Position numbers and translations under genes: made by a program. The notes under the pieces are model-generated. The model did no database searches, had not been told where the DNA came from, and saw only the letters and a program-made list of their open reading frames with translations. Below, piece by piece: positions 27,240 to 31,731 of a stretch of DNA of 64,000 nt; position 1 is the first letter of the stretch, and each line of letters begins with the position of its first letter. The DNA comes from Paenibacillus terrigena DSM 21567. GTDB lineage: Bacteria > Bacillota > Bacilli > Paenibacillales > Paenibacillaceae. The DNA is taken from NCBI RefSeq assembly GCF_000374845.1, contig NZ_KB895412.1:567056-631055 (forward strand), read 5' to 3'.

Positions 27240-27950
27240 TTAGTCAAATCTACGTTTCCGGTAGATAATCAGGCAGGCTGGGATCGATAGAGCGGTCCAG
27301 ATCAAGATGTTCAGGAAGTCGCCTTGAATAGCGCTGAATCCATTTCCCTTCGTGATTTCTGTTAAGGCATGGATCAGATGATCTGTTGGTAAGTAAGATA
27401 CGATGGTTTCCAAGAACTCATTTTTCAACATGGGTGCGAACATCGGTCCGACCATGAAGATCAATAGGACCGGTAAGCCAGAGATTGACGTCTCTTGTAC
27501 CGTACGTGAAATGAGACCGATAATGGTACCAATCGCGATGAACATGATAAGTGCTAAGAGGAACATAAGAACTAACCAGAGATAGTCCATCGTTAATGTA
27601 GGGCCTACGACGACCACGCTAATGGCAACGACCACGATCGAGATGAGCATTGTGATGAAGCTTTTGCCGAATAAGATTTCAATGGCAGACGCTGGGGACA
27701 GCATCAAGACGCGAAGCGTATGCTTCTCTTTTTCCTCGGATACCATGCTGGCTTGGACGAAGGCTGCCGTCATCGACAGGACGAATAGAATCGGCATGCT
27801 TAATAGAATACCGGCTTCCATCCCCATTCTCTGGAACAGTAAAGTGAACATGATTGGCATCGCAGCCATTAATAAGACTTGCGGATTTTTAATCGCATCT
27901 TTCCATTCTTTTTGAACAATCGCTTGAAATCTTCTCATTGAAAATGTCAT
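27240..27950 (-). CDS. ABC-2 type transporter permease
   Basis: 236 residues with six predicted membrane segments and an N-terminal cytoplasmic stretch (RRFQAIVQKEWKDAIKNPQVLLMA) typical of ABC-2/NatB-like permeases. EEKEKHTLRVLMLSPAS is a conserved coupling-helix region in this group. The start overlaps the stop of the ATPase gene by 4 bp (ATGA). Together they form an exporter of unknown substrate. Confidence 0.9.
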   Translation of the reverse strand: MTFSMRRFQAIVQKEWKDAIKNPQVLLMAAMPIMFTLLFQRMGMEAGILLSMPILFVLSMTAAFVQASMVSEEKEKHTLRVLMLSPASAIEILFGKSFITMLISIVVVAISVVVVGPTLTMDYLWLVLMFLLALIMFIAIGTIIGLISRTVQETSISGLPVLLIFMVGPMFAPMLKNEFLETIVSYLPTDHLIHALTEITKGNGFSAIQGDFLNILIWTALSIPACLIIYRKRRFD

Positions 27951-28795
27951 TGTAAGTTCCCTCCCGTAAGTTTTACGAATATATCTCCTAATGTTGGTTC
28001 GTTGGAATGAATGGATTGTAATTGGCCATTCACCATGTATTCATTGATTTTCTCGATGCCTGCTGCATCTTGAACGATAATTTCTTTTCCGTTGTGTTCT
28101 GTGACGACGGTAATGCTGTGATCGCTATACATAAGACGTAAGTTCTGCGGCGTATCGAGTGCCGAAATTTCACCTTCGTGGATAAAGGCAATGCGGTCGC
28201 AGAGCTGCTCGGCTTCCGACATATCATGTGTCGTTAAGAAAATCGTTGTCCCGGCGGCATTGAGCTTACGTAAGCTGTCATGAATGTGCAACGTATTTTT
28301 CGGATCGAGTGCCGATGTTGGTTCATCCAAGAATAATAGATCCGGCTTGTGGAGCAGTGCTCTGGCGAGCGTGACCCGCTGACGCATCCCTTTCGAGAGT
28401 TGCTTCACGAGAGCTTTCTTATCTTGAAGCAGGTTCACTTCGCCCAAGACTTCATCAATGCGCTTCAGGGGCACATCATATAGTTTGCAGAACAGCTCCA
28501 GATTGTCGTACACGCTAAGTCGTTCGTATAATCCGCTATTATCGGTTAAGATGCCGATTCGATTTAAATGAGAGAAATCTTTGGTTCTTGTGATGTCTTT
28601 CCCGAATACATGAACCTCGCCAGCCGAGAGTGTGAGTTGCGAAGTAAGTATTTTAATGGTAGTTGTTTTACCCGATCCGCTTGGACCGAGGAACCCGAAA
28701 ATTTCACCCTTGCGTACGTTAAATTCAATATGTTTGAGTGCTGTCTTGCTGCCGAATGATTTCATTAATTGTTTGACTTCAATGATATTCTCCAT
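27947..28795 (-). CDS. ABC transporter ATP-binding protein
   Basis: 282 residues. Walker A GPSGSGKTT, signature LSKGMRQRV, Walker B LLFLDEPTSALD, and H-loop TTHDMSEAEQL are all intact. Residues ~215-282 form a C-terminal extension seen in CcmA/NatA-type exporters. It is co-transcribed with the permease and downstream of the ABC-LytTR regulator. TATAAT on minus (28867-28872) in the gap suggests its own promoter. Confidence 0.95.
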   Translation of the reverse strand: MENIIEVKQLMKSFGSKTALKHIEFNVRKGEIFGFLGPSGSGKTTTIKILTSQLTLSAGEVHVFGKDITRTKDFSHLNRIGILTDNSGLYERLSVYDNLELFCKLYDVPLKRIDEVLGEVNLLQDKKALVKQLSKGMRQRVTLARALLHKPDLLFLDEPTSALDPKNTLHIHDSLRKLNAAGTTIFLTTHDMSEAEQLCDRIAFIHEGEISALDTPQNLRLMYSDHSITVVTEHNGKEIIVQDAAGIEKINEYMVNGQLQSIHSNEPTLGDIFVKLTGGNLQ

Positions 28796-28935
28796 CGCTT
28801 AATTCCTCTTTTCGCTTAGGTCTCTTGCTTACATCCCCAATATTAGAGAAAAACCCGAGAACCCGCATTATATATGGGATGAAAAGAGTATACGAGGGGT
28901 TGAAACCTGCAATTTCGGACTTGAATGAATCACAT

Positions 28936-30126
28936 TTAGATGCCAATTAGCGCACGTAATTCATCGAATTTCCCCTTCGATAACGGAATGGAAGACTTTG
29001 ATTTATCGTCCAAAATAAGACTGTAGCTGTTCCGTGTCCACGTGATCACTTCACGCACATGTTGGAGGTTCACGATGTAGGATCGGTGACAGCGGAAGAA
29101 GCCGAATAGCTTGAGCTTCTCTTCTAAATCCCCCAGTTTGATGGTGCAGGCAAATACGCCTTCATTCACATGGAGCTGAGAGACTCCCTCATTGCTCTCG
29201 ATGAACAGAATTTCGGTCGGATCGAATAAGATGATCTTGTCATTCACCTTGGCGGGAATTTTCTCGATTCGCATCGGGTAGGTCTGGACAGGTGATTCGC
29301 TAGGAGCTACCCGGACTTCATCGTGCTCTGCATCGGACTCTCCAGCAGGTGCAGGCGATGCATCCGCGATCGGTAAGTTGGAAGCTATATCCGCTTGTTC
29401 AATGCTTGTTGTCTGTTCTAATGGCGTCTCATCTGTCACGGCTGTGTCGGATGGGCTTGATGGCTCGGGTTCGCTAGCGCCCTCAAGCTCGATTTTCTTG
29501 AATTGCTGACCTTTCAGGGAATAGACCTCGCTTGTGATCGAAAGGGCATCTTCCATCGACGAAGTCGTCATGAAGATCGCCGTTCCCTGTTCTTGAAGAT
29601 GTGCGATCACCTGACGGACGATAATACAGCTCTCGAGGTCAATGTTCTGCTCTAGTTCTTCCAGAATAAGCAGTTCAGGGCGATGAATGATGCTGCGGCC
29701 GAGATGAAGGCGTCGTTGCTCAGAGAACGTCAGCTTGCCGCAAGGCAGCTCCTTCTTGTCCCATAATCCGATTCGGCGGATGATTTCATCGATGGAGCTC
29801 GCATCTACACCGTACAATTGGCAAAAGAAATGCAAATATTGATGCACTTTCAGTCGTTCGTAGACACCATCATGACGCAAGCATACGCCAATCTGCTCCG
29901 GCGTCTTGCGATGGACAAGATGGAGTTCGACGCCATTCCATCGCGCGCTTCCATTGGAAACGGGTGTTAGGCCAAGTAATAACTCGATGAGTTGAAATCC
30001 GATATCGGGATTGCATTGTATCGCAGCACATTGCCCGGCTTCCAAGACCAAGTCCATAGTAGGGATAATGGTGTTGTTGCCTGACATTTTGCTTAATTGA
30101 TGGATATGAAAAGATTTGATTGTCAT
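28936..30126 (-). CDS. degenerate ABC ATPase domain fused to LytTR DNA-binding domain
   Basis: 396 residues from ATG at 30126, which follows AGAGAGGTCCTCAGC; the open frame continues upstream without domain content. Residues ~1-210 align with an ABC nucleotide-binding domain. The P-loop is lost (AIQCNPDIGFQLIELL, no GK[ST]). The signature is reduced to LTFSEQRRLHLGRS and Walker B reads LLILEEL. A Pro/Ser/Glu/Ala linker (~215-285) leads to a LytTR domain (~290-396) with ILFIESNEGVSQLHV, FFRCHRSYIVNL and SIPLSKGKFDELR. It is likely a regulator of the adjacent exporter, using a non-catalytic NBD as a docking or sensing module. The regulatory role is inference. Confidence 0.88.
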   Translation of the reverse strand: MTIKSFHIHQLSKMSGNNTIIPTMDLVLEAGQCAAIQCNPDIGFQLIELLLGLTPVSNGSARWNGVELHLVHRKTPEQIGVCLRHDGVYERLKVHQYLHFFCQLYGVDASSIDEIIRRIGLWDKKELPCGKLTFSEQRRLHLGRSIIHRPELLILEELEQNIDLESCIIVRQVIAHLQEQGTAIFMTTSSMEDALSITSEVYSLKGQQFKKIELEGASEPEPSSPSDTAVTDETPLEQTTSIEQADIASNLPIADASPAPAGESDAEHDEVRVAPSESPVQTYPMRIEKIPAKVNDKIILFDPTEILFIESNEGVSQLHVNEGVFACTIKLGDLEEKLKLFGFFRCHRSYIVNLQHVREVITWTRNSYSLILDDKSKSSIPLSKGKFDELRALIGI

Positions 30127-30294: not shown

Positions 30295-31731
30295 TTACCC
30301 GATCTGCAGCGTCAATGTACCGTCCTTATAGTTCCATTGGAAGGCAGGGAATTTCGACTGGATGGCACCGAGCTCCAGGTAGGTCTCATTTTTCTCGCTC
30401 CACACCGATTGGGAAGCTGCGGTGAACGTCAATTTGCTCGAATCAGATTTTTGAAGCGTGAGCGTCTGAGTGGTTTTATCCCACTTTGGCTCTGCATTCG
30501 TGAGCGCCGCGACAATGCGTGATGGGAGGTAGACCTTGTTTCCTTTTTGAATAACAGGAATCGGTTCAAGCGTGAGATCCTCGAACGCCATAAGTTGATT
30601 ATTCTTGATCGTAACGGTGAGTTTGCCGTTATTGACGACCTTCATCGCTGTTAATAACTGTACGTTGTTACCCGTTCGCATGATATCCGGCTTGAGTCCT
30701 TTTCCATTGAAGTCCGTCATGTTCGGCGTTACATACTGCTGGGTTGTCAGTTTGAGCAGCCCCCCATCGGACAATGGGATGACGGACTGGATCCGCCCCT
30801 TACCAAAGGTGGTTGTGCCGACTAAGGTTGCAATGCCATGGTCATGCAAAGCCCCGGATAGAATTTCAGAAGCGCTGGCAGAATTCTTGTTTACGAGTAT
30901 TGCGACAGGCATAGGAAGACTTGAGCCGTTCTGAATTTCTGTAGGTTGCAGCTTGCCGGTGTTATCTTTCGTATACATCAAGATGCCTTTCTCGATGAAA
31001 TGTTCTGCAATATGCTGGGCAGACTCGACATAGCCGCCTGGATTGTTACGTAAGTCGACGATAAGTGACTTCATGCCGCGCTGTTGCAGCTTGGAGAGGT
31101 GTTCGGCGAACTCTTCATCGGCCTTGCTTGTGAAGCTCGAAATCTGAATATAACCGATGTGACCCGGCAGCAGAGCGCTTGCAACCGCAGGTATATGGAT
31201 TGCCTCACGCTTGATATTGAAATCCATCAGCTTACCGCTGCGTTTGATCGTAACGGTTACCGAAGTACCGGCTTTACCAAGGATGTATTTTTGCACAAGG
31301 GAGCTGTCAGTAATCGCCTTGCCATCCACTCGGGATAGGATATCGCCTTTCTGAATGCCTGATTTCTCGGCAGGAGATCCCTTGAATACACGCATAATGG
31401 CGGCTTTTCCATCTTCAAAGTGAGTCTCGATACCGATCCCTTCATATTGAAGGTTGAGTTGATTCTGGAACGCCTTACTCTCTTCAGGGGTAAAGTATTG
31501 CGAGTAGGGATCGTTCAGCCCAGAGACCATGCCTTTTAACGCTTTTTGGACAAGTTCTTCCTTTTGTGCATCGGTGATATTGTAAGCGTCGATATATTGC
31601 AAGACTTCATTCAGGATCGCCGTTGAATTCGAAGTAGATTCGGCATACGTGCGTTCAGGAAGGATTGTTGCTGCCGTGAGTAGGGATAGAGATAATGCCA
31701 TCGTTATAAAAATACGGTTGATTCGGGACAT
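30295..31731 (-). CDS. secreted S41 C-terminal processing protease with copper-amine-oxidase-N-like domain
   Basis: 478 residues. Signal peptide (~1-30), helical region with YSQYFTPEE, PDZ domain (~90-175: IMRVFKGSPAEKSGIQKGDIL), and S41 protease core. The core has the nucleophile Ser in NSASASEILSGAL and the general-base Lys in TTFGKGRIQS. The last ~100 residues (VYLPSRIVAALTNAEPKWDKTTQTLTL) match the copper-amine-oxidase N-terminal-like domain common in Paenibacillus surface proteins. Predicted to trim proteins outside the membrane. AAAGGATTG lies upstream of the ATG with long spacing. Confidence 0.93.
   Translation of the reverse strand: MSRINRIFITMALSLSLLTAATILPERTYAESTSNSTAILNEVLQYIDAYNITDAQKEELVQKALKGMVSGLNDPYSQYFTPEESKAFQNQLNLQYEGIGIETHFEDGKAAIMRVFKGSPAEKSGIQKGDILSRVDGKAITDSSLVQKYILGKAGTSVTVTIKRSGKLMDFNIKREAIHIPAVASALLPGHIGYIQISSFTSKADEEFAEHLSKLQQRGMKSLIVDLRNNPGGYVESAQHIAEHFIEKGILMYTKDNTGKLQPTEIQNGSSLPMPVAILVNKNSASASEILSGALHDHGIATLVGTTTFGKGRIQSVIPLSDGGLLKLTTQQYVTPNMTDFNGKGLKPDIMRTGNNVQLLTAMKVVNNGKLTVTIKNNQLMAFEDLTLEPIPVIQKGNKVYLPSRIVAALTNAEPKWDKTTQTLTLQKSDSSKLTFTAASQSVWSEKNETYLELGAIQSKFPAFQWNYKDGTLTLQIG

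Follow-up and report, generated by a model that had tools for sequence, protein, structure and literature searches.

The window analysed here is a stretch of 64,000 nucleotides from the genome of Paenibacillus terrigena DSM 21567 (contig NZ_KB895412.1, positions 567,056 to 631,055). On its minus strand an S41 protease gene, a gene fusing an ABC nucleotide-binding domain (NBD) to a LytTR domain, a 140 bp gap, an ABC ATPase gene and an ABC-2 permease gene follow one another. The features of the locus are, in that order:

30295-31731, same strand as the fusion and upstream of it: S41/PDZ protease with a copper-amine-oxidase-N1-like tail
28936-30126, minus strand: pseudo-NBD-LytTR fusion regulator, 396 aa, ATG start (open reading frame call, Pfam, AlphaFold2)
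29992-30018, minus strand: former Walker A of the fusion, residues 37-45, QCNPDIGFQ, with no GK[ST] (motif alignment)
29806-29871, minus strand: post-Q-loop segment of the fusion, residues 86-107 (DGVYERLKVHQYLHFFCQLYGV), where its NBD is least eroded (conservation analysis)
29272-29490, minus strand: acidic disordered linker of the fusion, residues 213-285 (AlphaFold2)
28945-29241, minus strand: LytTR DNA-binding domain of the fusion, residues 296-394 (Pfam, E 3.2e-25)
28880-28926, minus strand: three direct repeats with a 21 bp period, candidate LytTR operator (cores ATTCA at 28926, TTTCA at 28905 and TTTCA at 28884)
28867-28872, minus strand: -10 box TATAAT, 7 bp past the last repeat core, with no -35 (gap alignment, promoter scan)
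27947-28795, minus strand: exporter ABC ATPase, intact (Pfam, motif alignment)
27240-27950, minus strand: ABC-2 permease, intact (Pfam)

An earlier note, made from the sequence alone, had placed an exporter ATPase and permease just downstream of the fusion, and this is borne out by Pfam and by the window, where both genes are intact and on the same strand. The note had also described the N-terminus of the fusion as NBD-like, without the Walker A GK[ST] and with a broken signature, and as followed by a LytTR domain; domain search, alignment and AlphaFold2 modelling agree on the first description and the domain search on the second. The LytTR domain scores 88.6 bits against a curated cut-off of 22.6. 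The ABC_tran match is weak (E 1.1e-7) and begins at profile position 27, the P-loop part being absent. These are the only two Pfam domains in the fusion, and no receiver domain was found in it. In the AlphaFold2 model, residues 1-210 form a full NBD fold (block pLDDT 90-98), the LytTR domain is modelled confidently and residues from about 220 to 285 are disordered. The nearest solved folds identified by Foldseek in the PDB are NBDs, namely LptB with ATP, TM_1403, NosF and ABCA4. TAL-effector matches from a PDB sequence search were discarded, as these are summed weak repeat hits with no stretch that passes alone.

The motifs of an active ATPase (Walker A, LSGGQ, Walker B DE and the H-loop histidine) are all altered in the fusion of the window. 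Compared with the neighbouring ATPase, the Walker A reads QCNPDIGFQ rather than GPSGSGKTT, the signature LTFSEQRR rather than LSKGMRQR and the H-loop TTSSM rather than TTHDM; a further motif pair is LLILEELEQNID in the fusion and LLFLDEPTSALD in the ATPase. Searches of the same family, of a set of named genomes and at class and phylum level supplied the fusions; the named genomes gave 80 loci, of which 79 have the fusion at full length. GK[ST] is present in none of 109 aligned fusion NBDs, mostly from Bacilli, with one call (L067) too short to cover the region. The degeneracy is therefore neither chance nor error, and a frameshift or assembly artefact as its cause was rejected, since the same state is found across the Bacilli sequences. 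The H-loop histidine is lost in the aligned fusions as well, and LSGGQ is typically replaced by L[ST]xSExxR. Partner ATPases, of which every fourth sequence was inspected, retain GPSG[SA]GKTT, LSKGM or LSRGM, LDEP and TTH. On the alignment, with neither Walker A nor H-loop histidine in any Bacilli fusion, the loss of the ATP-binding motifs is family-wide in Bacilli.

Erosion of the NBD is not uniform. When conservation in the fusion is expressed as a fraction of that in the ATPase, the minimum is at the Walker A (0.41) and the maximum in the segment LYERLxVxxxLxxxxxLY that follows the Q-loop (0.79). No part of the NBD is more eroded than the nucleotide pocket. Solved NBD structures place the post-Q-loop region along the groove that receives the coupling helix of the permease. 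The D-loop aspartate and the SExxR that replaces the signature are also kept. Of the two halves of the fusion, LytTR is the better conserved, and even the most eroded members retain it. In a strongly eroded fusion from Cohnella (L105) the ABC part is undetected by Pfam, yet the model has an NBD-like topology.

A P-loop (GSRGSGK[ST] or GSPGSGKTT) and the Walker B DEP survive in five fusions from outside Bacilli (L201, L203, L205, L207 and L210), where the H-loop histidine is replaced by TFG. These loci also have a separate ATPase downstream. Intact ATP binding, which the earlier note had set as evidence against its reading, is matched by a motif in a few distant relatives, but in these the H-loop histidine is already gone and the genes are arranged in the same way. 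Three non-Bacilli genomes (G998, G1165 and G1166) have two fusion copies each, L202, L206 and L215 lying beside L203, L205 and L210; one copy has GSRGSGK[ST] and the other a damaged P-loop, GSHGNGKDP or GSQGNGKAP. In the NBD tree all of the fusions form a single clade against the partner ATPases (support 97-99), within which the P-loop-bearing fusions branch first. Within the P. terrigena genome, no other match to the NBD of the fusion is better than the partner ATPase. The pattern fits a single old fusion to an exporter-type ATPase, with stepwise loss of catalysis and later of nucleotide binding. The input domain would be an ancient paralogue of an exporter ATPase that lost catalysis first and ATP binding afterwards.

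Co-occurrence with exporters elsewhere, which the earlier note had set as a test, is near absolute. Adjacency to an exporter was not used as a criterion in selecting the named loci. A permease lies within 3.5 kb downstream of the fusion in 79 of 79 named loci, and an ATPase is directly downstream in 70 of the 79 and at +2553 in one more (L032), although these loci share descent and include a few near-duplicates, so that the counts overstate their independence. Across 300 genomes of the family, the permease and a fusion or LytTR hit occur together in 94, the permease alone in 1, the hit alone in 10 and neither in 195 (Fisher p 5e-65). Several divergent matches first found through the LytTR domain only are eroded fusions adjoining an ATPase and a permease.

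Some loci have unusual features. The sole family genome with a permease and no hit (G208, locus L180) has a fusion gene reduced to a 109-aa fragment, next to which the ATPase and the permease are both intact. At L187 (positions 1385-2989) the ATPase and permease are seemingly joined in one 534-aa frame next to the fusion. The L219 locus is on plasmid pBMV_2 of Priestia megaterium ATCC 14581, typed as mobilizable; it is flanked on one side by a gene for a site-2 protease and on the other by one for an AraC regulator, and two mersacidin-family lantibiotic genes are nearby.

The gap between the fusion and the ATPase gene (28796-28935) had been named in the earlier note as a place to look for DNA binding, and direct repeats of the LytTR operator type, with a 21 bp period, are present there. 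On the minus strand the gap of the window reads ATTCA-N16-TTTCA-N16-TTTCA-N7-TATAAT. Over 89 such gaps there are 52 TTCA-TTCA pairs at a distance of 21, against a mean of 0.8 in shuffles (maximum 4 in 200 shuffles), and a second peak of 23 pairs at 42. A test that presupposes no core finds a self-match at lag 21 in 36 of the 89 gaps, against a mean of 1.3 at other lags. In the P-loop-bearing and odd lineages it does so in 8 of 12 gaps, where the cores are different, for example CCAGTTGTC or CACCACTCGTC. A core that varies by lineage while period and place stay constant is what would be expected from co-evolution of a regulator with its sites. In the 6.36 Mb genome of P. terrigena the triple repeat has two matches, this gap and one other; a reversed control also has two, so uniqueness is weak evidence and it is the comparative signal that carries the case.

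Known LytTR sites are 9 bp repeats lying 10-13 bp apart (PMC11347149), and repeat spacing in the LytTR Regulatory Systems (LRS) is mostly 12 bp (PMC6193735). Judged by sequence, the 21 bp direct repeats match this operator geometry of approximately two helical turns. Of 89 regions upstream of the fusion gene, 6 match themselves at lag 21, no more than at other lags, and LRS-style autoregulation of the fusion was rejected in the absence of a clear repeat signal there. With the last repeat as the anchor of the alignment, the gaps share a -10 box at a fixed 7 bp spacing and have no conserved -35 region. A sigma-70 promoter scan of the gap on the operon strand found no -35/-10 pair, in line with a missing -35, which argues for an activator. 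The repeat nearest the -10 box occupies the space between the -35 and -10 positions, so a bound protein could also repress; CoxC represses at a site overlapping the -35 (PMC11347149). Taken together, the association with the operon and the operator-like repeats make it very probable that the fusion controls the adjacent transporter operon.

At ten loci without an ATPase beside the fusion (L074, L075, L077-L081, L084, L189 and L182), the fusion and the permease are kept. In all but L182, the permease directly follows the fusion with no ATPase between, and a PF06695 (Sm_multidrug_ex) gene is nearby. Within the named set, PF06695 is nearby in 8 of 8 ATPase-less loci and in 1 of 71 others (p 3e-10, with kinship ignored). 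In the printed sequences of the ATPase-less loci the repeats instead precede the PF06695 gene, with cores that are clear in L074, L075, L078, L079, L081, L084 and L189 and weaker in L077 and L080. On the NBD tree L182 belongs to a separate lineage, and its repeats precede a permease-PF06695 operon. From this comparison, what is constant across loci appears to be the regulator and the permease, and what is controlled appears to be the transporter gene behind the repeats. That these loci keep regulator and permease is the best evidence for placing the permease on the sensing side. It is possible, with somewhat less than even odds, that here the permease and the dead NBD-LytTR protein are no longer a pump and have become a complex of receptor and transcription factor controlling the PF06695 transporter. 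If this is true, the family displays a path from exporter to one-component sensor.

The most probable explanation, at about 0.62, is that the fusion is a one-component regulator of the transporter operon whose dead NBD most likely reads the state of the exporter from the seat of an ATPase. We infer that its LytTR domain binds the 21 bp-spaced repeats before the ATPase-permease operon and so controls that operon. The dead NBD would most likely take an ATPase seat in the permease assembly, and exporter conformation, occupancy or subunit balance would set how much of the regulator is free or active on the DNA. Docking is supported because the post-Q-loop segment is the best kept part of the NBD and because the ATPase-less loci keep fusion and permease. 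The earlier note had proposed a one-component regulator that docks on, or competes with, the exporter ATPase to sense transport status. Its direction is upheld by co-occurrence and the repeats; docking and the sensing of transport status stay conjectural, as does the choice between activation and repression.

In a mirror-tree test, the distances among the pseudo-NBDs track those of the ATPase (partial r 0.59) and not those of the permease (-0.03), which counts against docking on the permease only, although a correlation between paralogues that share a fold may have trivial causes. This result would also suit a dead NBD that pairs with free cytosolic ATPase as an NBD-NBD heterodimer, such that unassembled ATPase titrates the regulator and the permease has no direct part. 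So would the kept D-loop aspartate and SExxR, since the D-loop aspartate and the signature are dimer-interface positions in NBDs. The retention of the permease at ten loci with no ATPase beside the fusion speaks against such titration, which is rather unlikely. In ordinary loci, a mixed NBD pair in which the dead domain touches the ATPase is no less likely than contact with the permease, and a pseudo-NBD in one ATPase seat would touch both.

It is also conceivable that the fusion regulates the operon while its NBD merely dimerises or binds a small cytosolic ligand, with no contact to the transporter. In favour of this, NBD folds act as dimer modules, the model shows the fold whole, and small-ligand sensing is common among one-component regulators. 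This is nevertheless quite improbable, as it would leave unexplained both the near-absolute linkage to one permease family and the permease retained where the ATPase is gone, and as the nucleotide pocket is the most eroded part of the domain. Asymmetric exporters with one degenerate NBD exist and the NBD fold is kept here, but that the fusion is mainly a non-catalytic exporter subunit, regulating weakly or elsewhere, is very improbable given that LytTR is its more conserved half and persists in the most eroded members, and given the operator-like repeats in the adjacent promoter.

A pump that reports on its own activity commonly relies on a kinase or a separate regulator for this. In this family, a copy of an exporter-type ATPase has apparently been disarmed and joined to a DNA-binding domain, reusing a transporter part as a sensor beside a working exporter, an arrangement that recurs across many Bacillota. 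Stages with the P-loop intact, the P-loop lost, the NBD eroded and the partner ATPase lost survive in extant lineages, so that the passage from transport enzyme to transcription sensor can be put to the test. A predicted operator and target are also supplied for a large family annotated only as LytTR or ATP-binding proteins.

Early LytTR surveys reportedly recorded an architecture of ABC ATPase plus LytTR, for example BH3894; we know of no analysis of its degeneracy, operator or gene order. No paper on an NBD-LytTR fusion was found in the open literature searched, a scope outside which two older LytTR surveys fall. In Escherichia coli, MalK and MalT tie a transporter NBD subunit to a transcription regulator that reads transport state; unlike the fusion, MalK is an active ATPase and MalT a separate protein. 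NatAB of Bacillus subtilis is an ABC-2 exporter pair under an adjacently encoded LytTR regulator, but NatR, a response regulator, works with a kinase, NatK. BceAB-BceRS similarly lets the state of a Firmicutes exporter govern the exporter's own operon, and uses a histidine kinase with a response regulator for this (PMC6978683), whereas the fusion locus lacks both kinase and receiver and its ABC-2 permease is small. The LRS of Streptococcus mutans, HdrRM and BrsRM, share with the fusion a LytTR regulator without a receiver domain, an adjoining membrane-protein gene, in some cases adjoining ABC transporter genes, and direct repeats (with a 12 bp spacer) near the controlled promoter (PMC6193735). 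For their regulators no NBD is described and the partner is a membrane inhibitor; their repeats precede the -35 of the operon that contains the regulator gene itself (PMC6193735), whereas those of the fusion lie behind the regulator gene, before the exporter operon, and lack a -35. The permease follows the fusion in all loci, directly in most ATPase-less ones. CoxC and RcoM resemble the fusion in joining an N-terminal sensory domain to LytTR in one component and in targeting three direct repeats approximately two helical turns apart, but their sensors respond to CO (through an MHYT domain in CoxC), where the fusion has a dead NBD as input (PMC11347149). LytTR one-component regulators adjoining ABC exporters are therefore a known kind; the dead-NBD input domain, its graded decay, the 21 bp operator and the ATPase-less variants are new.
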